A stretch of 64,000 bases of DNA, taken from positions 55,019,877 to 55,083,876 of the forward strand of contig OV121081.1 in assembly GCA_921293015.1 (NCBI GenBank). Reading direction: 5' to 3'. The notes under the pieces were generated by a model. The model saw nothing but the letters and a program-made list of their open reading frames with translations. It was not told where the DNA came from and did no database searches. This DNA comes from Phorcus lineatus. Taxonomy: Eukaryota > Mollusca > Gastropoda > Trochida > Trochidae. Made by a program: the position numbers and the translations under genes. Shown piece after piece: positions 21,661 to 62,788 of this stretch (positions within the stretch are counted from its first letter, which is position 1; the number at the start of each line of letters is the position of its first letter).

Positions 21661-21779
21661 TGAATATAAATTTCAGATGATTTGAACCTACATGAACATG
21701 TTTACATAAGCATGTTTAATATTTGGCAGGTGTCAAAGCCAATTATTAAAGGTTATTTTACATGCATGTCACCAAAAGT

Positions 21780-24398
21780 CTAGAAAAAACGGACTCAAAG
21801 CAGCAACCTTCCTTGATGAATTTTCCAACTTCTTGCAACTTCAGAGCAGTTTTGCTAACAAATTCATGGTAATGGGTGATGTAAACATCCACTTTGATGA
21901 TGAGAATAGCACAGAAAGGGACACTATTGTCAACCTCCTACAATCTCTCAATCTTTCACAACTTGTGAATGAACCAACTCACAATCGTGGGCATACTTTG
22001 GACTGGGTTATTGTACGTGAAACTGATGATATAATGAAGGATCTCAGAGTAGAGGACATCCAGATATCGGACCACTTTCCAGTTTTTTGCAAGCTGAATG
22101 CTACACACCCAGAACGGAAGATGACTTACAAGAACTGCAGAAACTTAAGAAAGATAAATCGTGAAGTGTTTATCATGGACATTCTAAACTCAGATTTATG
22201 CACCCAAACCCCAGACAACGTCACAGACTACATCAATCTTTACAACTCTGTCCTCTCAACATTATTCAACGTTCATGCCCCACTTCGTTCAAAGAAGATA
22301 GCCATTAAACCCCAATCTCCGTGGTACAATGACAGCATCAAAGATGAGAAGAAGATACGGCGTAAACTTGAAAAACAATGGAAGCGAACTGGACTGGAAG
22401 TCCATCGTCAAATGTATGTCAAACAAAGAAACAAAGTTAACCACATGATTCGCAAATCCAAGACAGAGTATATCAGCAACCAAGTCCTTGATGTGGAGAC
22501 AGACGCAAGGAAACTTCATCGCCTTACAGCCAGTTTGTGCAACAAGTCGAGAGAATCATCTAGACCAGATGGACAGACAGCCAAGCAAGCTGCAACAGAC
22601 ATGTCAATCTTCTTCAAAGAAAAGATCGACAAGATACACAGCAGCCTGGCCGCTAATGGTACTCCAGACGACACCCCACCCACTGCTGACAAATGTGAAC
22701 CTGAACATACCTGGTTGGATATTCACCCTTTTACACCTGACGAGGTTAAGAAGATCATAAAGACATTGCCAATTAAAAGCTGTGAACTCGACCCAATACC
22801 CACAACTCTTCTAATGGAATGTTTGGAAGCCCTTATCGAGCCAATAACGAACATCATCAATATTTCAATATCAACTGGATGTGTGCCACTCTCATTCAAA
22901 GAGGCTATTGTTCGACCTTCATTGAAAAAGCCTGGCTTAGACAAGAATCAACTGAAAAACTACAGGCCGGTCTCGAACCTCCCTTACCTATCAAAAGTTC
23001 TGGAAAAAGCTGTGTCATCCCGCCTATCTTCATATCTGAGCTCAAACAGTCTTTTAGAGAAACACCAATCTGCGTATCGGGCCTATCACAGCACGGAGAC
23101 TGCTCTTCTAAAGGTCACAAATGACCTACACGTAGCAGCAGACGAGGGCCAGATTTCATCACTCATTCTCCTCGATCTCTCCGCGGCGTTCGATACTATC
23201 AGTCATCAAAGGTTAATAGCAAGACTGGAAAAAGATCTCGGAATCAAAGGAACAGTCCTAGCCTGGTTCACTTCATACCTTTCTAACAGATGTCAACGTG
23301 TTGTGGTTGAAGGAGAAACATCATCGTCAGATCTTCTTCAACGAGGTGTGCCTCAAGGATCAGTCTTGGGTCCTATACTATTCACCCTGTACACCCTACC
23401 GCTCAGTGATATTGCCTCAAAGCATAGGGTAAACCAGCACCAATATGCCGATGACAATCAGCTATATCTATCCACCCGCGTTGACAATATTACATCATGC
23501 CTTATCAAACTCGAATCCTGTTGCTCAGACATCAAACAATGGATGAAAGACAACTTCCTAAAACTGAACGAGGAAAAGACAGAATTCATTCTCATTGGTC
23601 CAAAATCAAAACTCGGCAAGCTTGAACAGCCGGTGTCCATCATGATAGGAGATGCTAATGTCACGCCTACATCTAAAGTCAAGAACCTTGGAGTCTGGCT
23701 GGACCAACATCTTGTAATGAAAGATCAAGTCTCACATATAACAAGAACAGCAAATCTACATCTGCGAAACATCAGTAAAATCAGGAACTACCTAAGCCAA
23801 ATTGCAGCAACTAAATTAATCCTGTCACTTGTAATCTCACGAATAGACTATTGCAACTCTCTTTTGGCAAACATCTCTCAGCAGCAATTAAGACGTCTCC
23901 AGATTCTTCAGAACACCGCAGCCAGAATAGCAACCAAGACAAAGAAAATAGACCATATAACACCTGTACTCAAATCTCTTCATTGGCTTCCCATATCATC
24001 CAGAATAGACTACAAGCTCCTCCTTCTCGCCTACAAGTGTCTCCACAACCTTGCTCCAGTCTACCTGTCAGAACTGCTTCCTCCCTACCAGCCATCAAGA
24101 TCACTTCGCTCACAGCATCAACTTCTCTTTTCAGTGCCTCGCATCCACTCAGCATCCTTTGGAAAACGATCCTTCTCACACTCTGCATCGACTAAATGGA
24201 ACTCTCTGCCACCAAACATCAAATCCTGTCAAAACCTCACGACCTTCAAGACTCAACTGAAGACGCTGCTCTTCAAACAAAACTTTGACTAAATAACTAA
24301 ACGTCACAGCTACACACATCTTGTCTGCGCACAGAGCACTCACTTGGGTGGATGTGGCGCATTATCAAATGCAATATATTATTATTATTATATTATTA
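21780..24398 (+). mobile_element. L2-type non-LTR retrotransposon (LINE), 5'-truncated
   Basis: The element begins inside the endonuclease domain (..[18 protein letters not shown]..). It runs through one open reverse-transcriptase frame to a stop at 24292. A 3' UTR of about 100 bp follows, with GAGCACTCACTTGGGTGGAT and GGCGCATTATCAAATGCAAT, and it ends in a (TTA)n tail. Short 3' microsatellite tails instead of poly(A) and this 3' UTR motif are typical of the L2/CR1 group. No obvious long target-site duplication. The uninterrupted frame suggests a young insertion. A second copy of the 3' tail lies at 27.65 kb. Confidence 0.93.
21833..24292 (+). CDS. L2 LINE ORF2 fragment: endonuclease (partial) and reverse transcriptase
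   Basis: 819 codons without a stop. The N-terminal residues are the distal part of an APE-like endonuclease, with GDVNIHFDD (about residues 16-24), [10 protein letters not shown] and the catalytic SDHFPV (about residue 79). The N-terminal endonuclease residues are missing, so the protein cannot nick as a complete enzyme. The reverse-transcriptase core is intact: [10 protein letters not shown]; motif [11 protein letters not shown] (about 445); motif [12 protein letters not shown] (about 505); and the catalytic YADD (about 537). The C-terminal domain ends [20 protein letters not shown], usual for L2/CR1. The frame opens from further upstream without an ATG, consistent with 5' truncation; 21833 is only the first codon taken. 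L2 ORF2 proteins are usually somewhat longer, about 950-1000 residues. Confidence 0.93.
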
Positions 24399-29440: not shown

Positions 29441-31105
29441 TCAACAGTGACAATGTACAAGATAGCAGAACTGTTACATGTATATGTTTCAATGTGTGGG
29501 TTTACATGACGTCTTTACTTGACAAGAACACTGTTATTTGTTTCAATGTGTAGATTTACGTGACGTCTTTACTTGACAAGAACACTGTGATTTGTTTCAA
29601 GGTTTAGGTTTACATGACGTCTTTACTTGACAAGAACACTGTTATTTGTTTCAATGTGTAGGTTTACATGACGTCTTTACTTGACAAGAACACTGTTATT
29701 TGTTTCAATGTGTAGGTTTACATGACGTCTTTACTTGACAAGAACACTGTGATTTGTTTCAATGTGTAGGTTTACATGACGTCTATACTTGACAAGAACA
29801 CTGTTACTGTTCCAATGTGTAGGTTTACAAGACATCTTTACTTGACAACAACACTGTTACTGTTCCAATGTGTAGGTTTACGTGACGGCTTTACTTGGCA
29901 ATAACACTGTTACTGTTCCAATGTGTAGGTTTACATGAAGTCTTTACTTGACAACAACACTGTTATATGTTTTAATGTGTAGGTTTACGTGACGACTTTA
30001 CTTGACAAGAACACAGTTATCTGTTTCAAGGTGTAGGTTTACATGACGTCTTTACTTGACAAGAACACTGTTATCTGTTTCAAGGTTTAGGTTTACATGA
30101 CGTCTTTACTTGACAAGAACACTGTAATTGTTTCAATGTGTAGGTTTACATGACGTCTTTACTTGACAAGAACACTGTTATCTGTTTTAAGGTTTAGGTT
30201 TACATGACGTCTTTACTTGACAAGAACACTGTAATTGTTTCAATGTGTAGGTTTACATGACGTCTTTACTTGACAAGAACACAGTTATCTGTTTCAATGT
30301 GTAGGTTTACATGACGTCTTTACTTGACAAGAACACTGTTACTGTTCCAATGTGTAGGTTTACATGACGTCTATACTTGACAAGAACACTGTTACTGTTC
30401 CAATGTGTAGGGTTACATGACGTCTATACTTGACAAGAACACTGTTACTGTTCCAATGTGTAGGTTTACATGACGTCTTTACTTGACAAGAACACTGGAA
30501 TTGTTTCAAGGTGTAGGTTTACATGACGTCTATACTTGACAAGTACACTGTTACTGTTCCAATGTGTAGGTTTACATGACGTCTATACTTGACAAGAACA
30601 CTGTTACTGTTCCAATGTGTAGGTTTACATGACGTCTTTACTTGACAAGAACACTGTAATTGTTTCAAGGTGTAGGTTTACATGACGTCTTTACTTGACA
30701 AGAACACTGTAATTGTTTCAAGGTGTAGGTTTACATGACGTCTTTACTTGACAAGAACACTGTTATTTGTTTCAATGTGTAGGTTTACGTGACGTCTTTA
30801 CTTGACAAGAACACTGTTACTGTTCCAATGTGTAGGTTTACATGACGTCTTTACTTGACAAGAACACATTTATCTGTTTCAATGTGTAGGTTTACATGAC
30901 GTCTTTACTTGACAAGAACACAGTTATCTGTTTCAATGTGTAGGTTTACGTGACGTCTTTACTTGACAAGAACACAGTTATCTGTTTCAATGTGTAGGTT
31001 TACGTGACTTAACTTGTCAAGAACAGTGTGATTTGTTTAAATGTGTAGGTTTATAACACGACTTAACTTGACAAGAACAGTGTGATTTGTTTCAAGGGAA
31101 ACTTC
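29440..31105. repeat. 54-bp minisatellite (about 30 copies), CRE-like motif in most units
   Basis: Direct tandem repeats of 52-54 bp. The consensus is GTAGGTTTACATGACGTCTT, then TACTTGACAAGAACACTG, then TTATTTGTTTCAATGT. Variants alternate between TTATcTGTTTCAA, TTACTGTTCCAA and TAATTGTTTCAA, showing sub-family structure and local homogenisation. Most units contain TGACGTCT, one base from the palindromic CRE (TGACGTCA) bound by CREB/ATF factors. The array lies just beyond the 3' end of the minus-strand ARM gene. The edge units at 31005-31105 are degenerate. Binding is an inference. Confidence 0.97.
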
Positions 31106-32011
31106 CGGGCCTACCCCAACAAGAATAAAAGAAGATAATTCCAGAATGTTTTCATAAGAGTGACAAAGAACATGATTTTTTTAATTACCTTGATACAAAA
31201 CTCTAAAGGAAAAGTCAATTTATTTTATTATCCACACAATGTGATTTCATAGATACTGAAATCCTTGTAAAGATATTATTAAAGAGTTCTTATTGTATTT
31301 CATCAATAAAGTTATTATATTTCACACAATGTTCACATCAGGCATTCTTTTGCGGTATATGATACAAAAATAGCAAACTGTCATTAAATATGTACATATT
31401 ACATACATTCAAAATTGACATATATCTGAAAGCAATCCTTTTTTGTCATAATGACAATAATAGCTCGTTCAATATCGACAATCATGAAAAGTCATGTGAT
31501 CCTTTTCGGTTGAACTAAGACATACATTGTAGACTACTGATCTCGGTCAAAAAATATTTTGTTTGGACGGACTGAGAAATCCTAAGTGTTTTGAATATAA
31601 AATTATAATCTATCAATATAACAACGAAATATCACGAACAAACATTAATAAACACTCAAATTACATGACAAGGTTAAATACCTTGATAGTCAAAATACTC
31701 TGTGTGAGTGACATACATGCTTCTTGTGAACTATTGATGTTTAATACGGTAATATATTAACTTTACAATCAACATCAACTGTCCAAAACCCAATAAAAAG
31801 CAATCAAAATCATGTTCAGTTTATAAATGCAAAAATTGACGAAAAAATATAACAGTCTCTCAAAGTTACCCTGTATGAAATATACTATCGCTTTATAGAA
31901 CAAACTTCAAAAATTACTTCAGAGACTAAATGAATTAAATTTGATTATCAAACATAAAAAAGTCTTATATAGAAAAGTATCTTAATAAATATTTTGATAA
32001 TAGTTGAGGCT
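31106..32011 (-). other. Probable 3' UTR and downstream flank of the ARM-repeat gene
   Basis: No coding sequence. On the minus strand an AATAAA overlaps the stop codon (TTTATT at 32011-32016 on the plus strand), an ATTAAA lies near 31740 and AATAAA motifs near 31220. The true poly(A) site is not decided. Confidence 0.4.
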
Positions 32012-32112
32012 TTATTGGTCTCCATTTCTGGATTCTTGGAGCTCTGTTGAGAAGACGTCCTGGAAGGCTGGATTCGTCTCCAGAATCTTCGTAATCTGGT
32101 CCCTGTACCCAG
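32012..32112 (-). CDS. ARM gene exon 22: C-terminus and stop
   Basis: Acceptor CTCCTGTTGCAG, entered in phase 1, encodes GYRDQITKILETNPAFQDVF then STELQESRNGDQ and TAA at 32012-32014. The TAA overlaps an AATAAA hexamer. Confidence 0.86.
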
Positions 32113-35100
32113 CTGCAACAGGAGGGGGGTAATATGTAGCGTAATGCTGACAATAACACGTATAATCAGAATTATATGTGTGATTGATCAGTATGAGCGT
32201 GGTTATACCGTGGCAACTCGTAAGTAAACCTTGATAAGGATAAAGTTATTATTTTGGGATTGGATATTATCATATTTCTATGTGTGATTGGTCAGTATCG
32301 GTATCAGTAAGAGTTCCTATAACATTAATTTAAAGAAACTTATCTACCACTGAAAACTTTTATACCTATTACAAATTGTCATATATGACACTTTCGTCTG
32401 AACTTCCTTGAGCACTAACTTCTAATGCCGCTCAAAAAACTCAAAATGTCTGCAGTGTTGTAGAACGTTATTTTCGTCATACAGGTTATAGTATTATCAG
32501 CATAATTAATCAAGCACTTGATATCTGAGTTAGAATATAAGAACCTACACTGACACATCTCATCTATATCAATAAAGAAGGTTTAATCTGTAAGAGGTCA
32601 CTTAATAGGATGTGGTCACTGAATTGAAGAGTTCATAAAATCTCCAAAAAGACCTACCTTTCCAGAAAGACATGAGCGCCTTGGCAAAGGGTCTGTGTAC
32701 TGGGTCCTTGTTGCCGTGACGACGTGAGATGGACTTCAGGACCTCCAGCAAACGGTTTGAAGAATCCCCATCTGTAACAGAATCCAATTTCGCAATTTCT
32801 ATAAAATTTGTTTAAAAACAGGCTTACTCAATCACATGCTACATGTACATAATGGTTCAATAGCGGATTCATTCCAAATGTACAATTAAAACATTTCCAT
32901 TGGTATTGAAGGTTAATTTCACCGACAGTATATGAAAGCAGATGAGCCTTTACCTATGTGTTGGCACTTGGCAATGGCGTTGCAGCCGTATATCTGGATC
33001 TCCTGATTTTCGGAGAATCTCGTCATGGCCGTGAAGATGAGGTCGTGAATAATTTGGGATGAGGAGGTGTTTGTTGCCGTTTCTGAAAATAATGTTGGAA
33101 GTCTTATTTATGTACAATGCATAATGCATCACAAAAAACAACGTACTTATGACACATCTACAGATCTCATTGGTGTTGAGGAATCAAGGCTTATTGTTCT
33201 GAATGTCACCATTAGACTCACGGTACACATCACACGCAAATGGAATTCCCCTTTATGGCTTTCAATTCGGGACCTTCTTTAAAACCGTGTGTTCTTTGTG
33301 TGCTACAATGTTATATTCATTTAGAAAGAGATGAACCAACACGGAAGTTTGACGAAACGAATCTTTAAATTGACTCGAAGCCATCATCAAAGAAGACTTC
33401 TTATTCAAAAGAGATAGCTTGTGTTCAAGAATCGTTTTGATTATTCCAGGGAAGGTTATAGTTTTTAACAACGAACAAATAGAACAGGAAATACAAATGG
33501 AGTTGTTCCCCTTGATGCTACTGACTGGTACTCTATTACAAACAACTTATTACAAATGCACGTAAACCATTTGTGTCTTTCGGCACATTGTGTGACGAAC
33601 CGAATTCAGACTGCAAAAAATTAATAATAATATCGGTATAATATATGTTTGTCGACGAACCTAGTGAGATGAGGTTGGTGATGGCCATGAGAGCAACAGC
33701 AAACAGACGGTGATCCTCCGCATGCTGACCTAAAGCTGTGGAGATGATGTTGACTGCGTCCACAGTGATCTCGTTGGACATCAGAATTACTAGCGGAACC
33801 AAAAAATAAAATCATTGTTTAATCACCTATGTTTTTCTATATCGAGCCTTGTAGGTCAGAATTGCTGGATATATTATTTTAAACGGATGTAGACTTGTGA
33901 ACAATCTATTTAGATCAAGTTTATGAAACGTTGATAAAAACATTCTTCTTTTTCTAATTCTAAACACAAATATTCAAATCTTGAAATAAGTATGAAATGT
34001 AAAACTTGAATTAACCTTATTGTTTTGAAATAAATTCTATATAAATACTCAGATAAACTCTGCGATAAGACAATCTTGAATCTAAAATCCAAAATAGTAT
34101 AAAAAAACAAACTTTCCTGATCGGATCGTTATATCAATTTTGAAAGTTCGTTAATGCGAATGATTTTGATTATGTCATAAGCAATGTCATGAAACTTCGG
34201 CTATAAAAGCACAACATTTATATGGTTTGCAATACTTACAGATGCTGTGTTTTAAGAATAACGATGATTATGTAAATATTTGCTAGTAATTGCTAGCTGC
34301 AAGTCACTGTAGCGGAAACTAACCGTAATTTGACTGAGAATGAGTTGATATGGCATGTTAATTAGAACCTGGCGGATATCCTGACTACGAGTCAGGGTTA
34401 CTTGTGCGTTCAGAAATTTTACTCACGATTTTTTTCACAAATACAGGCCAAAGCTCCACATCCCACTATCTGAAGATCCTTGTTGTCTGTAAACGCTTTC
34501 ATAGAGGAGAGCACACTCCTTACAGCGTTACCCGGCATCTCGTGTCGCTCATCTAGAAACATTGAAAGGCATTGTGATGTCAAATATAACTGTTCGTCAC
34601 TATATTTAATCAACTTTGCAGGAAACATTCCCATTAATCTAACCTTTTGTAATGACATCGAGTTAGGAAACCGTAGATATTTTTTAAAAGAGTGCGTCTC
34701 GTATAGCCTTAGGTCTGATCAGAAAAATGTGATTTGACATTCTGCATATCTACATCATCAAACGTAATAACTTTCTACTCCGAATTGACAATTTGACAAC
34801 CCGGCGCTTTCAGAGGATAGGCAAAGCATCGACACTCTGTTTGGTGGTTTATTAACTTGAATGTATTGTCTTTATGAAAATGGGGATCGAAGTCGGATAC
34901 AAAACCGGGATATATTATCTATATTAACAAATAGCCATAACATAGAGTAATGATCATCCTGTTCACGTCTATGAGCCGATGACTGCCTTGATTAACAGTA
35001 AACCAGCAGCGAATTAGCAATATAGAAGTGCATGTATGAAACATCCTCAATCAGTCTGGTGCCTATGTCATCATCTAGTAACATAAATGTGAAAAGATCT

Positions 35101-38100
35101 TGTGAAACTCACCGAGTGCTAGCATGGCAATCATCTTGCAAGCACACTGCAATATCTCCGGGTAGGCTCCGTATCTGTCCATCGTCTCTAGAATCACCTC
35201 CAAACGTCTCTCCGCGATAAACACGTGCATCCCGCAATCTACAACACGTGGAGTAAGAAGATAAAGCGTCATGTGGATTTAATAATCTGCTGAAAATGTT
35301 CTCTTTTACAGAGAAAATTACTGTCTGAGCAATAATTCCAAGCATGAGCATACGTATCCAAACGTATTACGTACAGGATATACCATGGTTAAACTTAAGA
35401 ATATTGACAATAGATCTAATTTTAAGAAAGAAAACCTTGATTTTTTTCCTCCGAAAGGGTACATTCATGTAAATGAATAAACATGTCATTATTTTTTTGT
35501 TTCTTTTTTAAAAACTACAGCATGCAGTTGAGTCTGACATATATAGTCCTTCAAGAAAAGATGCAGATTAAGCGTAACTGACATGGACGAGTTTGGCAAA
35601 GTGTTATTCCTTCTGTAAGCTCAGTTACTTGTCCTCACCTGTTTTGAGGATGTTCTCAAGGGTTAGACAGACGAAGAGGACCAGGTCGGCATCCAGGTCA
35701 GGTTGAGACAACATACCGGTCACTGTACTGTCCAGTAGCTCTATGTCTTCTATACTGAGGTCTGTGGACAGATCAGGTAGGGTTAACGTGACGAGTCACA
35801 TGATACATAGATACAATAAATAAACATTCAGGCATGAGAGTTACCGATCAGGGCCCCGTTCCTCAAAACGATCGAAACCTTACAATAACTATTATAGACA
35901 CTATTTCATTTAGAAAGTTAAGATAGGTAAATTTAATATAACTGAATATATGTCTGAAATAGTACATATTCCTGTACCTTTTCGGGTCGTGACCCTGGCG
36001 GGTTTCGAACTCACACTCACAGAGCCTTCGGCGACCGTTCACAAACTTGTGTACACGGTCTCGGGTTACTATAAGTAACTGGTGGATTTTTTTCTCACTC
36101 GTCACTAATTTTCATTTTATAATTGGTTGGTGAATTCTTATTAGAGTTAATGAACATCCGTAATTCAACAAATAAAGTGCATCTACTAAAAGTGTATTTC
36201 AGTGTACATCATTGAATTTTGAATATAACAGTTAGTACATACTTCTGATTCCCGACAACCCGCAGAAAACCATAGCAGCAAACACTTTCACTTCCGGGTT
36301 ATTGCCCATACTAGTTGTGATGTTCACGATTGTCTTCAAGCCTCGCTCATCCATAATCAGTCGACATACTTCATCTGGAAGGGCATGCGAATATACTAGA
36401 AAGTGCTGAGTACTCATAAACTTATAAAAAGCTTTATATACATATTAGAGACAAAAACATGCTAAGACAACAACGTACTTTTGACGTTCAAAAATAAAAT
36501 ATTAATGGGACAGAATTTTTTATTATGGTTTGGTCCCTTTTATGTATTTTGTAAACAAAACCATCCCTTCTTTTTACAAGTACTAGGATGCGTGATTGAG
36601 ATCAAAACATGCCTTACCAAGCACAATGATGTTGCCGAGAGTCTTCAAGGACGACAAAACGATATTTGGACGAGACCGGAAGTTGGTCAGACAGTTCAGC
36701 AGAGCCAGGACGCCGCCATTATTGTTCACTCTGATCTTGTTGTCTTTACCTATATGTGTAGATGTTGCACACGATTAATGAATAGTCAAATATCAACTAA
36801 TACGACACATGTTTGAACTAGCGTCATATATATTGTCTTACGCAGTTTCGAAGCTTTCATTCTACCATCTATATTGGTTAGAAAAAGCGTTAGAAAGATA
36901 TATCACTTATAGGCCCAATCCATATATTATGACGTCCATATCTCTCTAACGCTATTTCTAAGCGATAATCCCTGTGGTTGACAGACTTTATCTATAATTC
37001 ATTTTGCAGGCTCATCTGTCAAAAGAATACTTACAGTCAGCAGTGATGTTCATGAGTGCCATACAGCCATACTCCTGAATGTCCTCACACGTATCCAGAG
37101 TCAACATGGCGCCAATCACTGCGCGTGATGCTCCATCTTCCTCCACCTGACGTCGAAGCTCTCCTGTTTATGAATAATAATTTGGAATTACATTGTTTTT
37201 GGCACATTTACATAAAACATTAAAGCTAATGGATAAATTTCCAAATTCTAATATAGAAATAGCGGGTTTTGGAAGTAACACATTTGCTACGCAAGGGTTG
37301 ACTCAAATTTTAGTGCATCGCCCACATCGGTGAATGGTAATAAGGTCCAGTAGATTCATGATTGCACTTTCAAGCTATGGTGCAGTGCGCTGAAAAGCTA
37401 GCAAAAAAAAGGTTTAGAATATCCAGTAATTAAGACTAGCGCGTTAATTCCTAAGGTGGCAGTTATTGAAGTGAAGGCATTGTAAAAATTGGACGATAGA
37501 TATTTACCCTTAACAGCAAGATTGCCCAATATTTTGCAGCCATGCTCCTGTATATTTATATCTTCTTGATGCAGCGTCATAGCGTCAACAACAGTTTTGA
37601 TACCGCCACACTTCAATATGCATCTTTGCATCTCATCTGAAAAATAACCCCAACTGTCATATCGTCGGCATTTTTTATTTTACACGTCTACATGAAACAC
37701 ATAAGGTTTTTGAATAAGTCATTTCATATTTTCATTCAATTCATTATGTGAATAAAAGCTATCAAAATTTAAACCCCTAGATTTCGTTTTTTAAGGTTTA
37801 CATTAATGACATGAAAAAGTCAAGCCACTGATCTAACTCACCCCCACCACGTGTCAGCTGACTAATAGAAAAGATCACGTGACCAAGAAGCTCGACACAA
37901 TCCGGGAACTCGGCAGCAACGCTCTGCAAGATAGCCAGAATCTGCTCTGTGCAGACGCTTTGTAGCGTAGTATCTGAAACAGTGTCAGGATTTCAAAGGT
38001 CAATAGATTTGCTACCAATTGCTAAATTGTGATTTATAGTATTTATTTCAGATATATGTCATGAAATGTGACCTAACATTATTACACGATTTATAAGTCG

Positions 38101-41100
38101 GTTTAGGTACTACTCAAATCTTTTTTAACCTCAAATTTGACGTCATCTAAAGTCGATCTAAAGGTAGGGGACTAGGGGAGAATGCGTACCAAGAGAGGCG
38201 AGGTTGCTGATGGTTCTGACCCCGTATTCCTGTAGCCCCTGTTCTCGCGGGTGTCTCTGCAGACTGTCTTGAAGGATCTCCAATCCGTCCTGAACCTGGA
38301 GCTCTTCACATGTGTCCGCTGTTGGTCACAAGGAGGAATGGGGTTAATAGTTTTTTTGGTTAACCGAAACTCTTAAATATACCGGTAAACCCTTACGCCT
38401 AGCGGAGAATGGAATAAGATTGGTGCACTATGTTATTACATGATTTATTGTGTTTTGTTTACATATCCTTGCTAGCCCCTGGCTATTAAGACACTGTTGC
38501 ATTATATGACAAATATGTTACTGAGATGGATTTCCAATATTTCACGGTAAAATACACTTCATGTCACCTTCAGTATAGTAATGAATGATATTTAGCAAGT
38601 TTTCAGCTTATCACTAGCACATCATATGATAAAGTTTAATTATAATCAAGTCACTTACCCATATTGGTTAGACAGGCCAGTGCCCATGCACCACACTCCA
38701 GAATGGACACATTATCGGGTGAGGTCGCCATAGCAAGTAGTACAGACTTGGTGGCCCCCGCTTGAGCAACGTCCAGACATGTGTCGTCTGAAAGGTTCAA
38801 CCAACTGTTCATGAAATCGTTCCACCAAGGACAACGATTAGTCATGTTTGTGTATTTTCGTTAAAGAGAAGAGATAAACATGTCATAACATAATGATATA
38901 TTTTAATAACGGTTGTATTTATATCTAAATAAAGCTAAAATATCATTTACGACTTTTACTGATAAAGGCGTGATAAGATACGTGTCATATTTTGTGTATT
39001 CGGTTAACAGAGGGGTCATTTCGAAACGTACCAAAAACAGCAAAACTGCCCAAAGCCCGACACCCGTTTTCGAGGATATCTTCATCGTTAGAGAACTTGT
39101 TCATCATGTCAATGACCGTGTGTACACCCCCGACCAGCATGATCTGTTTTGCTGTTTCCTCTGAAAGGAACAACCGTCACGGTTCAACAAACATGAACTC
39201 ACACTCACAATTCAAGATGCTTAAGGATGTTCGCTCCTCAGTCACAGCGACAAAACTCAAATAACCTTAAATCATAATGTTCTTATATAATAACCCAAAA
39301 TGAAGCGGCAATTTCTCAATTTTGATGATTTCTTCTTAAGTATTCATCAAAATTAAGAAACGTAGTGTTTTTCATTTTGAAATAATTCACAATTTTGCTG
39401 ACTCAGCAATTTTAATTGTAACTATCATTTGAGCAAGTTCTATTGTCTGTTTTTCTTAGAAAGTAGATGTTGTTGAAAGAATATGATTTGTATGTATTCG
39501 TTCAGGTATAACTTTTAGATAATGAGTGGGAGAAAGCATGTTTTTAGTAAAAAAATAGCTTAAATATTGATAATTTAATTGAAATGTTTGAATACATTTT
39601 GTACCGTAGCGGCTAAAAACCCACAGTAGCATGTATATTTTATACTTTTTTCTGGAAGAAAATAATCTTAACTCAAACATGTTTTCATATTAAAAAAAGT
39701 TTAATACAGGAACTAATTTAAAATCAAGATTTTTCAAAAAAGGTCATCATTTCCCCATTGACTCCCATGTTAAATCTCTGACTGACATAGGGATCTTTGT
39801 CTTAATATATCTCGAAAAAACCAACACTAACCCCCATTTTTTTGGGTTGATATTTCAAGCAAATACACTAAACTTTTGAAAAAAAAAAGTTAAAAAAAAA
39901 GTTTAATACTTTAAATTTGAGGAGCGGACATCCTTAATATTATGATGATAACATAGATTAACCAAAGTCACAGTTCAACATGGATTTGAGGATTTATCAT
40001 TTTCATAATGTTGTAAAATGAGTCAATGTACGGCGCTTTTTTATGTCATTTTCCCCCAAAACAACATGGCGGATCGTAGCCGATAGGTTAGCCTCTTTAA
40101 TGAAACCGTTTTCTAATTGCAACAAACCTTACTTATTGTTACAAGTTTTTCTTTATAACAGTCAATGCTGGATGATATCTTATTTATTTCAGATGAAAAA
40201 AAGTTTAGCACATTTTCATGAATATGAACAGGATATAATTATGTATTGTTATGTCTACAAGAAGTAATAACCGGATGTTCGTTGAACTGTAAATCATTAA
40301 TCAACTGCATGTCGTTAGCTCCGTACAGCTGAAGGAAGTGCTTGGAGCTCCGATGTAAGTTCAACCAATCGAGAGAGGTCATGTGACAATATTATCTGGA
40401 AGATCGTCTCCCACCTGTCTTTGATAGACTGCCCTTGGGTAATGTGGAAGTTATGTCAAGGTCTGCAGATATAGGTTAAATATTTAGACAATTGCGTTTC
40501 CTGTCCTTATCCGAATTTTAGACCGGAACAGGTTGGTTGTTGACACACCTTGATGGCAATTTTATAAACTGTATTCAAATCACCGACCCAATCATTGATT
40601 ATGGGTTTGATAAGTGTAATTAAATAACTTTTAAAGTAGGGAACTTGTGAAGTCAATAGGATAAGTATAGATGAAAATAAGAACAGGCTTTTAAATGATA
40701 TTAGGTTATCAATGAAGATTTTAAATTCAACACCAATGTGAAGAATAGTTTTCTTAATTTCTTAAATTTGGAAACTATGAATAGGTTCAACAGAACCCTC
40801 ACAAAAATTACTGTTGTATCATCTTGTTTCAAATAATTGACGCCATAACTGCTAAGTGGTCTTTGTAAGAGTAAAACGTTGAATACTGAGTGCTAGCAAA
40901 AATTTTGTAGGAAATTCAAATCACTTCTAAATTACACCCTGTACCTATCATGGATCTTACAGATAATTAACATAGAAGAAAATTCCGTGATGGATGAATA
41001 AACACTAGGCGAACTAGAATGACACGGTGTCTCACCTGTTGTGATGAGGTTGCCTAGGTTGAAGAGACACTGTTTGACGATGGCTGGGTCGTCTCCATGT

Positions 41101-44100
41101 TGAGACATGGCACTCAGAACCCGGGAGTGACAGTCCTGTTCAAGAAGCTGGACAGCTAGCTCTTCTGATGATTAAATAAAGGTTTCGGAAAGTTTCAGAA
41201 ACTGCTTACTTCAGCAAAAAAGTTGTTTTGGGATATCGGGGGTTTACACTTAAATTCAAATGTAAATGAACATGTATATATTATAAACTTAGAATCTTGT
41301 TCTTAATGTTAATGTGGATACATTGAGTAGTGAACATAGGATACAAAAGACCTGAGAAATATTCAGATGAACTTATCAAAAGCTATGGATAAGTGTATTT
41401 ATAATACCAATACATGAGAAAAGCAGTATCAAAATAAATTTGCAAATGTTTATATCTACGCTGAAAAAGTAAAAACAATTTGTGAGTAAAATCATATGAT
41501 TTAAACATATATATGACAACTAATGCACCCAGGATTTTGATAATTCATAAATTTATTAGTATGTCAAACAACGGAACCATTTCAAGGATTTGATGGATTT
41601 ATCTACAGTTATATATCCATTCCAATGAATGAGACTTTAAGGTGTAAGTGACACGCCATCACCAAACAAACTCATCATCAAACGTCACATTTCTTCCAAT
41701 AAAGAGCTAGTTGATCTATAGAACATGTCATTCCCAGCTTCTTAATGCTACAGCTCACAAGTACTGACCATTTGAGGAGAGGAAGCCGATGACGTTTAGG
41801 ATGATTTTGATGAGCGGAACTCTCTCCGAGTAATACTTCATACAGTTCATTATGGCTGGGATTCCACCACTTTCCTTTATAATGAAGCAGTTGGCTTCTG
41901 AAATATGCAAATGAATTTCCATATATGACTTTAAATATAAAAACAATCAGCATCCTAAAAGAGCAGCGACAGGATTCTCGTCCTTGCAAGACAATAATGA
42001 TACACAGAAGCCAGATTGCATTCAATAATTTTTCAAAATGAATGACTGCTATTGAAATACAACTTTTTAATTCTCAGAATAGGCGACATTTCGTTGATTG
42101 TATATACATAACATTATTACTGTAATAATAAATAATGGTATGTTCATTTAACTTTGGTATTCTTACATCCTCACGACAAGAAGTCATTGAAAAGCAAAAA
42201 ATATGAATGTACTAACCGGAAATTGATGCCATCTCTAGAAAGGATGCGCACGCGTTGTACTGTAGCTCCTCCTGGTCGCTGAAAGTGTTCATTGCGTTGA
42301 CGACACATTTGACTGCGTCTTGTTTAGATAGCAGGACATGTAGTGTCTCTGTCAAGGGAGATAAGGCAATTGACATAATTCACAACGAAATACCTAAAAT
42401 GGTTAGCACAGTGCACAAGATTTATAAAGCCGGTCTCTTGCAAATCCTATCTTACAGTCTCCGTCTTGAAAACCATTTCTTAAGTTGAGATGAAGTATTA
42501 AGTTAAATATTGACCCACACTTTAAATATCCAACTTAAATTAGTACAAAAGGCGAACTTAACCAATAGTTGTAACATTCTGTATCGATTCTCTTATAACC
42601 ACAGTATTATAAGGCTATGTCCAATTTAGTGGGCCACTGAAACCTCTGCATCTTGATGATTGGATTTTGGATGGTTTTTCTAATCACGAATTTCTAAAAT
42701 TTCAAAGTATCAACATAATACCTTACCCATGCTAGCGTACATCCCGAGGTTTTTACAACCTCGTAGTTGATTGGCGTAGTCCTCCGAGTCTTCGCGCATC
42801 GTCCTCACGCATGTCCGGATAGAGATCTTCCTGTCTAATGTGACCTTATCTGAGGATGGAATATAAATCGGTTATCAACAAATTTATCATTTGCTTTTTA
42901 AGGCAAATCAATCCGAATCAGTTTGGAATCTTCAATTTTCAATTTCGAAAACGAAGACATAAATATCACGAACTTTGTAAATCAGGTAGAAACAACTTTT
43001 AAGCAGAATCAGGAAACTTGGCAGCTGAGACCCTTAATTGCTCAGACGAGAGAACAGTTCATCGAAGACTGAATAACTGTAACATGACCGAGACTATTCT
43101 TTTGAAATATTAAAACTATGACATTGGTGAATATGTAAACCACAAATTAAAAATCTAAGATCAGCTTATAAAGAACTGTTCGTTGAAATATTTGTAATTT
43201 GTATTTCTACAACAACATAAGCGAGTATGCAAAGCGCCATCTCAATGGTCAAACGGCTATATGATATTCTACTGACCTGTCCGTTTAGGACTACTCAAGA
43301 TGTCTGTATCCATCTCCTTGATGACTGTTAACTGACCACTGGACATCTTGTCTTCATCTGGAGCATACAGTTACAGGTCTTTTATATCGTACTAGAATCA
43401 TATAAAATTGGATATATTTACACAAGAACCTCAGGCGGCTATCATGACATAGTTTTATGGTTCTGTCAGCCTGAGGCCACTCCGCTGTAGTTATTAACTA
43501 TATGTCTGCATAGGTTATGAGATGAAGTAACGGTAAAATGAAGTAAGGTTTTAGAAGTACATATGCATTGCATGTATATTTAACTTTCAAAAGTAATCTC
43601 TTATAAGATATGCACACTTTTCATTGAAAGAAAACTTGTTTTTGTTTGTTTTAAATTATTGAAGACTCGTTAATGATTTTGTCTCTTGAGGCACAGCTAT
43701 TTTCTATCTTAAAATTATAAAAACACCTCACTGTTTATCCAGGCAATTATAAACTTGAAGTGGTGAAATGCCTTGATTAAAATTAATACAAATTTTGAAT
43801 AATATCTTGCCCAAATGGATCAAAAGATGTTAATGAGTCGTTCACCTCGCTGCACATCACCAACGACGTAGAGTATACAAGAGCCATTTGGAATAATTCC
43901 CCGTAATTGGGAACGGACTAACCTTGTTACACTAGTGTAGAAACGCTTCTTATGACATTGCGATGTTTACAATTTTTTACTTAACGTACCTGGTGTCGAG
44001 ATATCTGGATTAGCCCGGTCTTGTGCGGCCTCGTCTCTGAGAGGACTTATACTTGTACCTTTAGCTTTCTCGTACATCTTGTCTTGTGTATCTGAAAGAT

Positions 44101-47100
44101 AAGGAGGGCTTGCTTCACATACACTGGACAGAACAACCCACTTATAAGCAGGCTGGCAAAACCATATTCATATTCAATTTCTTCTCGACATCCATAAAGT
44201 CTTCAAAGGGAAAATTTCTGTATATACACAACGGTAGTAAATATACAAAGATAATACAAACGCTGTAGCACGTCTTTAGTGAAATACATGTAGGGTGTTC
44301 TCACACAAAAAGAAACAAATGTTCCAAATTACAAGCCAACCTTCTTTTATCAATTATCAACGAATAATCCAATTAAGTTACGCGAATCCATTTCCCGAAC
44401 TTGAATGATTTCCAGGTGTTCACAGAAAAATGGCCGCATGCATGGTTTTGCCTTTGATATGTGACACTTCATTCTAAGACTATGGATAATCGAGTTGGTT
44501 AATTAAATGTTTTACCTTCTGAATAAAATGCATTTTGAATAAACTAATATTTAATGGGGGAAATATTATATATGAGAAATGTGCTATCAATGAGTCCCTA
44601 TAAACGCAGGTGATAAGAGAATGAGGTATTTCACACATATCATGTTGTAGCTGAAACAATTATCTACCAATTGATATCATTTTTAGGCGTTTTTGAAAAA
44701 TTGTTGTATTAGAAACACTAACATACTCAAAGGCCCTTTAAAAGATTGTGGCTGATATTTGATATTTATCGAATATATTTCCTGATTACCATACATTAGC
44801 GTCAATAATACCGATCTATGACCATATGACCATAACTGTTAGGAAATGTGTCAGCGGCAGTTACCTAACCTAAAAACTAGATACTCATGATAACTATTAT
44901 TTATGCATATAAATGACCAATCAAAAACCGATTCCCATACAGATAACACTAAGGTTGTCACAGCATTACTCTCACACTGAACAGATTACTATTTACTATT
45001 GTCATTAAGACTAGGACGTGTCACCACAGAGTATATGCACAACACTTCACCGTTAGATGTCTTCGATGTGGTTTTATTTGTTCTTTTCTGGCGATCGTAA
45101 ACAATGACAAACCTGTTGGGTTTTTAAAACACATACATTTTCGACAATTCAAAAATTCAAAACTTTAACGACCTAAATGTAGAGCTTTGTATGCTAATGA
45201 AAACGATAGAAGAATCATGAAGTTCATTGAAATTACGCTCAATGTTCGTCTGTAGGTCAAGTAATATACGCAATGTAACATAGAATGATAGATTTACACC
45301 TAGATGCGAGATAAACTGCCCTAAATGACCTGGGGCACATCATAATAAAGTCGGCGGGTGTTTGATCTAAATTATGAAGCAGAACCGATATATTATCAAA
45401 TAACTGGGGCAAAGTCCGATATCCCTTGCAGAGTATAATAACGTCCGCATTCACTGCTTCAGTTCAGGTGGAGTATCAAGAACACAACACAATGCTGCTC
45501 TGAAAATGTTTTTGACATAAAAGCTTAAGGTGGTTTGGGACGCTGCTTTAAGATTGTCGTTCAGCAAATACAAACGTCTTTAAAATTGAAAGCAGACTTC
45601 ATATATGTGTGGTCTTCGAATTTGTATAGTTATACAGTCTATAAATCTATTTATGATGTCAGTTGGCTCAGTGAATAGCCAAAGGTTTCTCAGTGTGCAT
45701 TCGGGTTTATAGCTTTATTATCTAAATCTTAAATGATGAAATAAGTGATAATACATTATTTGTAGTAACCCCATTTCATATATCATTGATGTCAGTTATT
45801 ATCAAATAAATAATATAGCAACGAAACTGTGTGGAATGGTTATCTAATTTTAAGGGAAAAAAAGAATATATGTGAACAAAAGAAACAAGCATGATTATAG
45901 TGTTAAAAGTGTGCTTATAGTGTTAAAAGTATGCTTATAGTCTATGGTTATAGTGTTACATGTATGATTATAGTCTTACAAGTATGATTATAGTCTTACA
46001 AGTATGATTATAGTCTTACAAGTATGATTATGGTGTTATAAATATGATTATAGTATGATAATAGTGTTACAAGTATAATTATAGTGTTACAAGTATGACT
46101 ATAGTGTTACAAGTATGATTTAATATGATTATAGTGTTACAAGTATGATTATAGTATGATTATAGTATTACAAGTATGATTGTAGTATGATTATAGTGTT
46201 ACAAGTATGATTATAGTATGATTATAGTGTTACAAGTATGATTATAGTATGATTATATTAATACAAGTTTGAATATTTTGTTACAAGTTTGATTATATTG
46301 TTACGAGTATGATTATAGTGTTACAATATGATTATAATGTTACAAGTATGATTATAATGTTACAAGTATGATTATAATGTTACAAGTATGATTATAGTGT
46401 TAGAAGTATGATTATAGTGTTACAAGTTTGATTATGGTGTTACGAGTATGATTTTAGTGTTATATGTATGATTATAATGTTACAAGTATGATTTTAGTGT
46501 TACAAGTATGACATTCAAAGACAATGGTTGTATCATAATAATTTAGATAACTCGAATCCCAATAATTCATCATAGGAATAGGAATCTGAGCACGGTTCTT
46601 ATTCTCTGCATTGTTTGACAAAAACTTTCCCGAATTATGTTCTTAACTACGATAACCGTCTATAGAATGATAACTGAAATGAGGTTATTTATTCAAAATT
46701 AACGTGACGAAACACAAGAGTGTGTGCACTAGTCGAGCCTGCTTGTAATTGAATGTGAAATTTAAAAAAGTCAGTTTATCTAAAGATTATGCCCGATTAG
46801 TTGCTTAATATAGAATAAAGACGCCATGAACAAGTGTTTTTAAAACAGTGAAATTCTGCGGAAGGATCAAGAAAATATTGCGCCACGAGGCAGGACTAGT
46901 TATACAACCGCAAGGGATAATGGCATCCATTAATCGAGGTAAAAACAAGTGCAAATGAGATGTGAGATCGTTTGAAATGCATCTTAATAACATTATTAAG
47001 CTTATCAATGATTCATTTAATAGCTCTTAATGATAAAAGAATATATATAAATATTATGAAAAATATAACCATTGAAAAAATTAACAAACATGCAACCATA

Positions 47101-50100
47101 AACATAATGATAATATCTTTGGCAATAAAGATATTTTAATCCAAAAAATCTTTCTTTTTTACAAGAGAATACTTACTTAAAATGATCATTATCCACTTTG
47201 CTGACTGTGTAAAATACAATGTCCTATCTCATCTGTTCTTGTTCTATTCTTATCACTGTATTATTCCTTAGGTCAGTGTCAACTCTTAGCTCATAAGCCT
47301 TGAACACTGTGATAACAAAGTAGTAAAATATGACTTCTCGGTATATATACTCGTTGAGGAAGTGAGGTTAATACCACGTGACGTATAAACTTGTCGTTTC
47401 CATAAACGGTATTTAATGAGTAAATAAAACGTAGGTGACAGGACTGGCCAATCCTATTCGTGAATGCACGGATTTGAGAAGCTTTAACTAAGACGATTTT
47501 TATTTGATGATATATTTTAAATCTTTACAGTTGTGTGCCTTTGTTAGTGATGAAACAGGGGGGGGGGGGGGGGAAAGGCAATAAGTATTGAATTATTATC
47601 GAAAAGAAGTTTTTCCTTACAATTTGTGGTATCACTGACTAAAAAAGTTTTTTTGTGATCATTACAAAAGGAGTACTTTGGTCATCACTTCTATGTACGA
47701 TTTTGTCCAAATTTTTAATTGAATTGTTGAATTGAGAATACCTACAATTAAGGAAATTTGTAATCATTTCTTTTTATGATATCAAAGAAAATCAATAATC
47801 AAAACTATGTTGCATTAAAACTTATGAAATATATCTTTTGTAGCATATACCGAAGAGGGAAATAAAACTTGTCATTTTATTGATGACAATGATACATGTT
47901 ATATTTGAACGGCATGATTTATATCAATATGTTATTCACAATATACCACCAACCTCTAGCATAGTGCCATACCGCTGGCTTTGGTCGATAATACAGGAAA
48001 ACTTGAATACAGTTATTATCAAAATAATAACAAATCTATCGGTGTCTATAGTCGTCTGTGCATTCTTTGAAATGATAACATTCAAATGACAGAACTATAT
48101 AACAACATTCTTCATATCACCATTCCACATCTTTAGCAATGACCGGATATCTAAAAACAAACCAAAGATTAACGTTGCCTTCCGACACCCAACGCCCACA
48201 TCCTACAGGCATATAAGTAACGCGAGTGAGTAATTGACTAATTCTGCTTGTAATACAACATTCAATCCCAATTCCGGCACGATAAGGTGGACTGTGAGAA
48301 TGAAACTATTCCCTATCTGAATCATCATGTATTTTGATGCTGAGAAACTGACATTTGATGAAAAGACATTTTAATGTCATACGACGTTATACTAAGAGGA
48401 TTGAAAGCGCTAAATGTGTTATCAGCTAAACGTCAATTATATTACAAGTTCATGTACGAGACATAAAGGTAATTTAGTTAATATAGCAAAATTGTCTACT
48501 AATAATTCTAATATGAAAAACGATTTCCTGAATTGCTAGCGAGAAAATAACGTAAGGTATTGTATAACCTTTAGTTGTCTAGCAACAACTCAACAACATT
48601 GTTTTCATTGGACCACCCTTAACGTGATTCTCATTTATATGCATTTGTTATCAATAAAGTTTATATCGCACAATAGTTGTAAAAGAAGGCAAATTATATC
48701 ACAGCCTACAGTTCGTGGTTATGTTTGTTCGTCACTACATGATGACGAGCATACTGGACAGGCGAAACAGGACATGTACATGTATAGTACCTTTAGTATA
48801 TCTGAACTAAAGGCAAGATTATAGGATTACAAATTCTCTTTAGTGTGAAGAAGCGTGATACGTTTCTAAGCAGGTACATGATTCTTAGGTTCTTACGAAT
48901 GAAAGACTAAGCACATTAATAAGAAATTATTCTTTAAAATTGTGCTTTTCTTATGACTTCACTATCTTAATTCCCTTTAAACACTTGAAGTATTCATGAT
49001 GGTTAGAGAAATCCGTTTTTACCTACACTAATATATCTTAAGCAAAGCAGATAAAAGTAAGTGATGATTAGTAGGTCACAAAGAAATGAAGATACTTCGT
49101 ACCGAAGTGATACGTAATGAAGATATATGGTTCCGAAGTGATAAGCAGATTCCTAGAGCGAAAGTAAATAATGTTCCAAAGAGACGATTGGTGCATCCTA
49201 TAGCAGTGTAGATAATGTTCCAATGATTAGATTACTATGATGATATTACCGACGTAGTGTAGATATTGTTCCAAAAAGATTATTAATAAGTCCCAAAACA
49301 ATCTGGATATCGTTCAAAGGAAATACCAAACCTAAAGACGATGGTTTATTCTTAAGCAACACATTCAGTGTTCAAATGAAATAATAAATTATGGCTAGAG
49401 CAATGTGGATATCGTTCGAAAGTCATGATACATGATTCTTAAAGATATCAAAGTAGACTTTTACCTCTTAGTCTTCTCATCCTTGAAAAAATCCTACTTA
49501 GGAAATGCCTTTTGGAATTCATCCTATATCTGCAGATATAAGTGTTTGCCACATAACACCCAAGCATCTCGCCAGTTGGTTCTCAAAGCATGGTCATTGT
49601 CGGCAGTTCCACACCTTAGTCATCAAAGAGAACTAATCTTCCTTTTAGGGGTGCACGTGACAGAAATGACACCGTTGTACATTCTCGATAAGTCTCTGTG
49701 TCATATAGCATGACATTGAAGCGTTCTGGTTAGTTCACCTTTATATGTATCTGAGGGTATCGACAAGGTCTGATGGCTGTTCACAATAGCACGGTGTTAT
49801 AATGTATCTCATCATAAACCTAGTTTTTTTAAAAAGGGGGAGTATGTAAGACGTTTTTATATAGGCGAGTGCTTCACCTCGACTTAGTGACATTGGGATG
49901 TGACGGTCGACGTTACACGTTTATACAGTTTTTTTTAGTGTGGAGGCTGCTTAAAGGGATTAATAAGAAAATATGTATTAATATATACTTAAAAGGGACA
50001 GGAAAACTATTTATAGCAATGTAAGAGTTGTAAGAACTCGAAGGAGATAAGTATTGGGTTAGCATGATTTTTTTCTTTGATCTAGGTATTGTGGTATTGT

Positions 50101-53100
50101 GGTATTGTGGTATTGTTTGATATAGTATTATGGTATTGTTTGATATAGTTAGGATATGAGGCTTTATAAAGGCGATGACACAAACTGACACTCATTAAAT
50201 ACATAAACAATCCGGGTGCGACATAAGAAACCAAGGCACATTTCTGTCCTAGACGTCCATATCAACTGTCATAAAAAAGTATAGCTTTTTTATATACATG
50301 ACAGAGCATGGTCAAAGTGCACGAATTATATCATTACCCAGAAGGATTTCCACTTCGATGCAGCCTATTAAGCGCTTCGCGCGACCGTATAGGTAAAAAT
50401 ATACTTTTCAGTGTTCAGGTACCCATTTCTACAGCTTGGTAGATTGAGAGAATTATGGATTAAATGTTTTGCCCAGGGACACAACGCAATACAGGCATGA
50501 TAATTATTGATTGGTGCCTCCATTGGGATTTGAACCCGGTCATTCGGCGTGATAGCTCAACACGCTAACTACTTCACAACTTTGTTTCAAACTGTAACAC
50601 ATACAATGTACTGATTTCAACAGAAAGTGTATGGCAAGTCACCATGAAATGAAATGAAATATTCTAAAATTGCTTTGCTTTTTGTAAACAACTTTTCGAC
50701 GTGACCTTGCATATCGGTGTAAGTATGTTTATTGAAAGTGCTGTATCCGGCTCTCCTAAAACACACGCGTGCTATGCAGACACTCTGGTGGTGTAAACAC
50801 TTTTAGTTAACTAACGTACTGTATTCATACACTATATGAGAAACAGTCTTGTGATCAAACATTAAGGGTTGTCATGTCTCTGGTTCTGTAGTTACGCACG
50901 ATGACATGCTTTCGTGACTATTTTGGTTCAACCTGTGACTATGTAAAATGGGGGTAAACTGATAAGTCATTGTTGAAAGTCTTGACTATGATGGAGATCT
51001 CGATATGCGCATGTTTAATTCTGAGAAACATTTTGATTGAGAATGCAATTGTCAAAGTTTGAATCAATATTAAATCAAAGAAAAAATAATTCATTCAAGT
51101 GCTCTATTTACTATCGTCAATTTCGTCTTCTGATAACTCTTCCAGAAAATATAAACAATATAAATATTATCAGTGAGATCAAGAATCGTTAACGTCAAAT
51201 TTCTAAAACCAACAAGGCTTTCAATTCTTGCATGTAGTGTAGGCATGAAACATTGTGGTGGTGTAGAAGGATTGTCCGGAAATTGTCATTCGGCAAAATA
51301 TAACAGAATTACGACTTTCGGAACCAAAATAAATCCTTTGATGTGGGACCAGAGTCCTGTTATGAGAGGGGGTTGGGTTCAAGCTAATAAAAAGCGTCAT
51401 AAATTTTGCTCATTGGAAACAAATATCTCTCAAACACACGTGTTAAAGTGTTGAAGGCGTGTCGTGTTAAATCTCGTAAAACAAAGTGAACTTAGGTTTC
51501 TTTAAATATAATTATGGATTTTGATGGACAGCTGTGCATTTCATGTATTCATTGTATTCAAACATTGACCAAATGTAGTTCATGTTATGAGCGTTTGCAA
51601 TCATGACCTTTATAGAATATGTACTATGAGTATTCTATTGAGAGATCTTGTTTTAGAAATACTTGTCATTCAAACAAATGTAATACTTTTATATCTTGGA
51701 AGACACTATGCGCAAGTACGTATTCTTGTTCGTTTTTTAGTGTTTTTTTCGTCAAGACTCATTCAAATTATTTCTGATTTGTTATTTTACATGACAATGA
51801 TTTATTATTCAATAAATAATGTTTATCTACAATCCGTTAACGAAACTAGCAAAATGTGTAAAGATTTTTATGCCAACTTATCAAAGACTGTTCTTTTTAA
51901 ATCAACCTTTTTATGTGTTTTATTCACATGGACAACGATTACAGCAGTATTTGTCCGACCCGACCCATCGCCCCCGTCCTCTGATTGGCTATATGTGTTT
52001 CCGTCAATCCAAACCGCCCTGCTGGGCCCATCTCATTAAACACGAAGTGACAGGAAGCTATCAGTGCAAGAGGTTATGTTTGTATTGACACACTTACATC
52101 ACATCACGACATTTTGCGTGTTTACATCCAAGTGCATATACTGGAGATAGATAGTTAAGGATATATGTAAGGTATATGTTTGTATTGACACACTTACATC
52201 ACATCACGACATTTTGCGTGTTTACATCCAAGTGCATATACTGGAGATAAATAGTCGAGGATATATGTAAGGTCTATGTTTGTATTGACACACTTACATC
52301 ACATCACGACATTTTGCGTGTTTACATCCAAGTACATATAATGGAAAACATAGCTAGAGATATAAATTATTATTCATTGACACAATCATTAAACTTAATA
52401 ACTATAGTATCATGAACATTACAATTTCTTTGGCTATTTTTGTCCAGTGTATGAAGCATGACAACGACATGTGATATATGCATTCACAACTTCTTGATTA
52501 GACTTTTGATTAAAACTACCATGTTGGGTTATAATGTTTTCAAATGACGAAAATTTCAAAAATAGTTCGTAGAGAAAACATACGCTCAATAATAATCAGA
52601 TGGTTTTGAGTTTATAAAAAAGTAGATGAAATTACCAAAAAGGGTTGGCTGATCCAGGTGTTGGTTTGTTTTATGTGCTACCTATAAACAATATGATAAT
52701 TTTATAGTTAAAAAATATCATATTGCCACCGCCAGGAGCCGAGGTTACTCTCGTAAACTAATTCACATAAATCATATCTATTAGAATAGAATATTAAAAA
52801 ACTTGCTTTATATATTTACTGTATCATTACATTAAATGTGTCTTGATATGATAAATGCTATTTTACATTTGTGCCATAAATGCACTACAGGCCTGTGGCC
52901 TTTAAGTATTGAATAAAGTTATTGCTGTGTAATCATGAACAATTTGCTCAACATTAATGAAATTGCCATGCAATACCTATTAGATACCTTAAATGACCCA
53001 GAAGACAAAAACTTTACTTACTTTTACTTATTCTCTCTAACATATATACAATGAAGGTGAATCATTGGGAATGAAACGTAATTGTCAAGGATCAAGGTTA

Positions 53101-62576: not shown

Positions 62577-62788
62577 CTGGAATAAAAGGAATAACCCTGA
62601 TGTAATTAATTTTGATCATTTGGTAAAAATGTAATCGAAATGTGCGTTTTCTGATATTTATATTTGATATTGGATAATTGACACAAGATTGCATTCGTAT
62701 TACTTAGAATATGGTTTTCGCTAGGTTTAACTCAGCATCTATGTGTAATTGTTACGAACAATCTGGGGTAGGCCTATATCACAATCGA

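Follow-up and report, generated by a model that had tools for sequence, protein, structure and literature searches.

Structure of the gene

The minus strand of the window (the whole 64,000-nt stretch of Phorcus lineatus DNA that was analysed) carries a gene of 21 exons that runs from 44091 to a stop at 32012. In our independent reconstruction, the joined exons form an intact frame of 860 residues without an internal stop; this is a real, intact nuclear gene, with junctions predicted from the genomic sequence. It begins with exon 1 (E1; 44091–43990, 102 nt), an N-terminal exon with no recognised domain, and an N-terminal linker, E2 (43277–43357, 81 nt), neither of which has a Pfam match. Seventeen consecutive exons of 123–132 nt follow (E3–E19), as the first-pass annotation had described, and the gene closes with E20 (32658–32771, 114 nt) and E21 (32112–32012, 101 nt), the latter encoding the C-terminal tail and the TAA stop (32014–32012). 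The reconstruction is matched by splice scores in all exons but four, in which one model site ranks second: the acceptors of E6, E12 and E17 (for E17, the top-ranked acceptor is also phase 1) and the donor of E9.

All 20 internal introns have GT–AG borders and lie in phase 1. The first-pass annotation had proposed 22 exons separated by 21 introns of this phase; a good phase-1 acceptor does precede E1, but no upstream exon was established, and a search for ATG-to-donor candidates in 46800–44100 listed six (with three donors), none of which was adopted. The ATG in E1 at 44077–44075 could be the start codon, in which case the preceding intron would lie in the 5′ UTR. Because E1–E20 have lengths divisible by three and are phase 1 at both ends, each array exon is frame-neutral, so the claim that exons could be removed without frame loss holds.

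A phase-blind splice score, based on generic weights, placed its best acceptor in phase 1 for 19 of 21 exons and its best donor for 19 of 20 (binomial p of about 8e-8 and 1e-8, respectively, against one third). Both best sites were phase 1 in 17 of the 20 gene exons that have both ends, compared with 82 of 492 in a control set of 126-nt stretches without a stop, taken from the window with the real exons included. At an assumed base rate of 30%, the chance of phase 1 in 20 of 20 introns is about 3e-11. The junctions also sit at an almost identical place within the ARM unit, mostly in an Asp or Glu codon split as G|AN: the junction codon specifies Asp or Glu in 14 of 20 cases, and its first base is G in 17 (an exon-final G before the intron). 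Unit starts coincide to about three alignment columns, with 14 of 18 units starting in the same column, and the model has an intron at every boundary between units.

A probable array of LRRK2-type ARM repeats

ARM identity is clear for the entire protein and less so for each exon. Profile HMMs recognised ARM-like repeats, as expected from the first-pass reading, in tandem units of about 42 amino acids: the best Pfam family was ARM_LRRK2 (PF23744, ‘LRRK2-specific repeats’; E = 2e-31, 109.4 bits against a cut-off of 26.2), and ZER1-like (1.7e-15) and Arm (PF00514; 3.1e-7, with 30.6 bits for a cut-off of 20.6) also matched. The one NCBIfam match, to a bacterial effector family, reached 30.5 bits against a cut-off of 2000 and was taken as repeat similarity. 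A plain single-sequence search of the PDB returned designed ARM proteins, importin alpha, ZER1 and Vac8, with LRRK2 absent among the 50 matches listed at E up to 1. With a profile of the 17 exons, LRRK2 came top (1.5e-24) through 12 matched stretches in its N terminus; ZYG11/ZER1, Vac8 and importin alpha, which likewise combine an ARM fold with sequence matches to this gene, were weaker. Only 1 of the 12 stretches had an E-value of its own below 0.01 (0.0064) and 2 scored below zero, so the match to LRRK2 accumulates over many individually weak repeats.

Pfam matches of individual exons were few and weak: with a limit of E = 1, 5 of 17 exons matched ARM_LRRK2 and 4 of 17 matched Arm. Of the 136 pairs that 17 units form, 85% had z > 2 against residue shuffles. 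When each of E3–E20 was scored with a profile of the rest, 11 of the 18 outscored every non-exon stretch of the window. These are E4 (42217–42348, 132 nt; ARM unit 2), E6 (41036–41164, 129 nt; unit 4), E7 (39032–39160, 129 nt; unit 5), E8 (38659–38787, 129 nt; unit 6), E9 (38190–38318, 129 nt; unit 7), E11 (37508–37636, 129 nt; unit 9), E12 (37035–37163, 129 nt; unit 10), E13 (36618–36749, 132 nt; unit 11), E16 (35113–35238, 126 nt; unit 14), E17 (34427–34552, 126 nt; unit 15) and E19 (32954–33082, 129 nt; unit 17). The leave-one-out profile missed the other seven, for which the ARM reading therefore rests on length, frame, phase and position in the array: the presumed units 1, 3, 8, 12, 13 and 16, encoded by E3 (42727–42849, 123 nt), E5 (41769–41897, 129 nt), E10 (37842–37973, 132 nt), E14 (36243–36374, 132 nt), E15 (35639–35761, 123 nt) and E18 (33661–33789, 129 nt), and E20, the weakest of the 18 profile matches, which appears to be a shorter, degenerate ARM-like unit and is perhaps a C-terminal cap. 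The earlier proposal of about one ARM repeat per exon is supported, with 11 of 18 units recognised from sequence.

Aligned with its 16 sister exons, E11 was predicted to form a helical hairpin of two helices (residues 2–21 and 26–41) that together cover almost all of the exon (mean pLDDT 87.3, pTM 0.59). ARM proteins stack three-helix units in a superhelix, and the first predicted helix is perhaps H1 and H2 merged in this fold of a single exon. Judging from these comparisons, the protein is probably a rod of around 18 helical ARM repeats resembling those of LRRK2, the Parkinson protein.

Origin of the array and competing explanations

The 18 units share a mean pairwise identity of 15%, and adjacent units are no closer (15%). 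Among 17 units (E20 left out), no offset from 1 to 9 was significantly more similar, the best being offset 2 (p = 0.075), with offset 7 below expectation (p = 0.99); there is thus no ladder of similarity between neighbours. At the DNA level, the only non-overlapping matches between exons with their flanks were of 17–29 nt. Recent exon duplication is ruled out by the 15% identity, the lack of a neighbour effect and DNA matches of at most 29 nt, and duplication of blocks of several exons was rejected because no offset was significant. Exon duplication is nevertheless the best reading, given the common place of the intron in the units, and the low identity, no higher between neighbours, makes it an old event. 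The array thus likely grew by ancient exon duplication, and of the growth proposed in the first-pass interpretation only this ancient form stands; the first-pass observation of the exon array is confirmed, and its interpretation is supported in part.

Overall, we consider it likely that the gene product is a stand-alone alpha-solenoid with some 18 ARM units of LRRK2 type, built by ancient duplication of one exon and serving as a binding scaffold or adaptor. In this model, a single exon with flanking phase-1 introns would have been duplicated long ago, the units then diverging while the introns were retained. The product would consist of a short N-terminal stretch, the ARM units and a short C-terminal tail, and, by analogy with ARM proteins in general, this putative scaffold or adaptor may hold partners on its concave surface. 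Transcripts would normally contain all exons; skipping one in frame, as might happen occasionally, would leave the rod one unit shorter.

The uniform introns could alternatively have been inserted repeatedly at one favoured site, into a repeat array that was older and had few introns. The lack of a similarity ladder among neighbouring exons fits such a history, as does the G that ends 17 of 20 exons before the intron, which resembles a preferred insertion site; we nonetheless think it improbable in view of the minute chance of 20 phase-1 introns in 20 and of unit starts that agree to within about three columns (one and the same for 14 of 18), with an intron at each unit boundary of the model. 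We give equally little credence to the idea that this is the N-terminal portion of a larger multidomain protein such as LRRK2 or an ARM-kinase, or a relative of such a protein, with the other domains outside the model. The repeats are of LRRK2 type and the acceptor of E1 implies that something lies upstream, but the frame closes with a stop at 32014–32012, and Pfam found no ROC-COR, kinase, WD40, ankyrin or LRR domain in the 860 residues. Upstream, Pfam scans gave no family in the three minus-strand frames of 44092–53999 (E up to 0.001) or on the minus strand of 54000–64000 (E up to 0.01), although short exons could escape them; downstream, no domain was found on the minus strand of 1–9990. 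An upstream kinase is accordingly rejected, with no Pfam match on the minus strand to 64000, and orthology to LRRK2 is unsupported beyond the ARM repeats, the ROC-COR, kinase and WD40 domains not having been found.

A further possibility, in line with the first-pass suggestion of variants with different repeat number, is regulated modular splicing: uniform exons would be maintained because they let tissues produce ARM rods that differ in length. Every array exon is frame-neutral, and there are precedents: exon 5 of mouse Lrrk2, which encodes one LRRK2-type repeat, is skipped, the short form being dominant in cultured astrocytes (PMC3651128), and brown-algal ROCO genes variably splice 72-bp, phase-2 exons of one LRR each (PMC11378527). 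However, ancestry alone predicts a uniform phase, units with 15% mean identity are too diverged for interchange, and RT–PCR of mouse Lrrk2 gave an extra band only for exons 4–9 among the six regions first tested (PMC3651128). A profile scan of the window returned 18 matches at E < 1e-7, which by construction are E3–E20, with the next best at E = 0.18; this type of search, which recovers 11 of 18 exons in leave-one-out and so excludes near-copies while diverged extra units could escape, found no alternative repeat exon in the introns. Variable splicing of the array exons is thus possible but unsupported, and we regard its regulated use as unlikely, if less so than the two preceding alternatives.

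Relation to known solenoid genes

Like other solenoid genes with one repeat per exon, this gene has repeat exons of uniform length and introns of a single phase through the array. It shows no recent duplication or shuffling of exons, a feature found in the LRR cases but not required of such genes. Brown-algal ROCO LRR arrays have one solenoid repeat per exon, of uniform length and in a single phase, as here, but are built of LRR rather than ARM repeats, with 72-bp exons in phase 2; they are reported to undergo intense shuffling, to be under diversifying selection and to yield alternative transcripts (PMC11378527). In Tetrahymena LRR genes, more than 98% of introns before 90-bp exons are phase 2 (PMC6564038); these arrays of one-size exons resemble the present one but are LRR, massively expanded and phase 2. 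The one-repeat-per-exon phase-1 ARM design is neat but not unprecedented.

The closest comparison is the LRRK2 ARM domain, the best match of this gene in both Pfam and the PDB profile search, although the ankyrin, LRR, ROC-COR, kinase and WD40 domains of LRRK2 were not found with the repeats of this gene. Going by the numbering of the exons that carry known variants, the ARM domain of LRRK2 may have roughly one exon for every 43 amino acids. In mouse Lrrk2, the likeness of one LRRK2-type repeat per exon is known for exon 5 (135 bp, 45 amino acids), which encodes essentially all of the fourth of 14 repeats and is skipped (PMC3651128). The first-pass remark that such uniformity is rare in ARM proteins overlooks this closest kind. 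By title and start of abstract, the papers found on armadillo repeats and intron phase gave no account of ARM exon layout; term look-ups in PMC3056147, PMC9472821 and PMC3742662 did not find the human LRRK2 exon boundaries, and the excerpts of PMC4573652 and PMC11514114 added no exon layout. More speculatively, the gene may keep an ancestral LRRK2-type ARM architecture, with one phase-1 exon per repeat, such that its exons and those of the LRRK2 ARM domain, the skippable exon 5 among them, share a single duplicated exon as their ancestor, and the lineage has long adjusted rod length by skipping exons in frame; we hold this combined proposal to be rather doubtful.

ARM arrays tend to hold repeat number constant, and one study found every human ARM tandem repeat to have been conserved since the ancestor of mammals (PMC3995336). 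A gene in which every repeat occupies its own frame-neutral exon offers a clean test case for whether splicing alters the number of ARM repeats in animals, and it also bears on whether exon duplication built the ARM domain of LRRK2.

An intact gene with uniform intron phase

We modelled the minus-strand armadillo-repeat (ARM) gene, which runs from 44091 to the TAA stop codon that ends its spliced frame (32014–32012, −), from stop-free AG...GT segments of 114–141 nt with passable splice sites. The minus-strand scan returned 81 candidates, including 18 of the 21 final exons (E3–E20, numbered in transcript order); the remaining three (E1, 43990–44091; E2; E21, 32012–32112) fall below its 114-nt length filter. 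With candidates joined and two exons corrected, the final model comprises 21 exons, 2585 nt and 860 residues with zero internal stops, and all 20 internal introns (182–1875 nt, median 389) begin with GT and end with AG; the gene is tidy and intact. Exon lengths in order are 102, 81, 17 exons at 123–132, 114 and 101 nt, reproducing the run of 17 described in the first-pass annotation. Its count of 22 exons and 21 introns becomes 21 exons and 20 internal introns: E1 has an acceptor, but its upstream partner exon was not established, so the 21st intron is half seen. An AATAAA motif overlapping the stop codon (32011–32016, −) might be a polyadenylation signal or a chance occurrence.

The same annotation had described all introns as phase 1. 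We scored every frame-compatible AG and GT of each exon with generic splice weights, not derived from this gene, and kept the top site regardless of phase. The best site was phase 1 at 19/21 acceptors and 19/20 donors, and the model's own site ranked first at 18/21 and 19/20, respectively. Both best sites were phase 1 in 17 of 20 exons; for comparison, 492 stop-free stretches taken from the window, a set that contains the real exons, gave 82 such cases. Phase-blind scoring and this control thus bear out the phase-1 pattern.

The repeats are of LRRK2 type

The 860-residue protein matched the Pfam families ARM_LRRK2 (LRRK2-type armadillo repeats; 2e-31), ZER1-like (1.7e-15) and Arm (3.1e-7). A single-sequence PDB search (E up to 1) found designed ARM proteins, importin alpha, ZER1 and Vac8; LRRK2, the Parkinson protein, is absent from its 50 listed sequences. 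By contrast, a 17-exon profile placed LRRK2 top (1.5e-24), followed by an engineered protein (2.4e-18) as the next distinct one among the best 60 of 86 matches. This LRRK2 score sums over 12 stretches across residues 115–645, which favours repeat-rich proteins; one stretch alone is individually below 0.01 (0.0064) and two score below zero. Judged by these profiles, the fold family is LRRK2-type ARM, a kinship supported for the repeats but not for the protein as a whole.

The ARM character, clear in the whole protein, shows in only some exons when each is scanned alone (E up to 1; ARM_LRRK2 in 5/17, Arm in 4/17). In a leave-one-out profile, 11 of 18 exons outscored every non-exon stretch of the window, and E3, E5, E10, E14, E15, E18 and E20 failed; we presume these seven to be ARM units on size, frame, phase and place. 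E11, aligned with its 16 sister exons, was predicted to form two helices whose ends coincide with the exon ends (mean pLDDT 87.3, pTM 0.59), which suggests that introns lie between structural units.

Origin of the array

In an alignment of the 18 units (E3–E20), 14 start at one shared column, with the remaining four offset by about two columns or less, and Asp or Glu occupies 14/20 junction codons. Both are the expected trace of duplication of exons with their introns. Residue-shuffle comparisons gave z > 2 for 85% of 136 unit pairs, the units having been pre-aligned to each other, which favours high z; most units are, by sequence, related to one another despite a mean identity of 15% (maximum 40%). 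Neighbours are no more alike than other units, similarity is not significantly greater at any offset of 1–9, and DNA comparison of the exons, each with 150-nt flanks, yields non-overlap matches of just 17–29 nt, all of which argues for old duplication. Growth by exon duplication, as first proposed, is therefore likely, but not as a recent event.

Potential for variable splicing

Given the phase and length of the array exons, skipping any one of them would preserve the reading frame, and variants of different repeat number, as first proposed, are a hypothetical outcome. A profile search found no further recognisable repeat exon inside the introns, at a leave-one-out sensitivity of 11/18 exons. 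The nearest precedent is mouse Lrrk2, in which exon 5 (135 bp) encodes virtually all of the fourth of 14 LRRK2-specific repeats; skipping it shortens the protein by 45 residues, and this shorter form dominates in cultured astrocytes (PMC3651128). That study sought exons divisible by three first and tested six regions, of which the one with exons 4–9 alone gave an extra band; the known alternative exon 42a was added in a later test (PMC3651128). The LRR genes of brown algae (72 bp, alternatively spliced; PMC11378527) and Tetrahymena (90 bp; PMC6564038) likewise have one-repeat exons of a single phase, but that phase is 2 and the repeats are LRRs. Among human tandem repeats with changed repeat configuration, 26% reportedly carried no more than one unit per exon, and human ARM repeats are described there as all conserved since the mammalian ancestor (PMC3995336).

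Other features of the window

A tandem array at 29481–31095 (period 54 or 107, ~30 copies, 91% matches) sits ~0.9 kb past the ARM-gene stop codon; others lie at 45885–46511 (period 20) and 62983–64000 (period 63/126/189, reaching the window's end). A LINE (non-LTR retrotransposon) carries an 860-aa open frame (21710–24292, +; RVT_1 8e-35) with an endonuclease match slightly under the family cut-off. Two open frames on the ARM-gene strand, of 401 aa (57431–58636, −) and 399 aa (4468–5667, −), match no Pfam family above cut-off and are perhaps exons of other genes.
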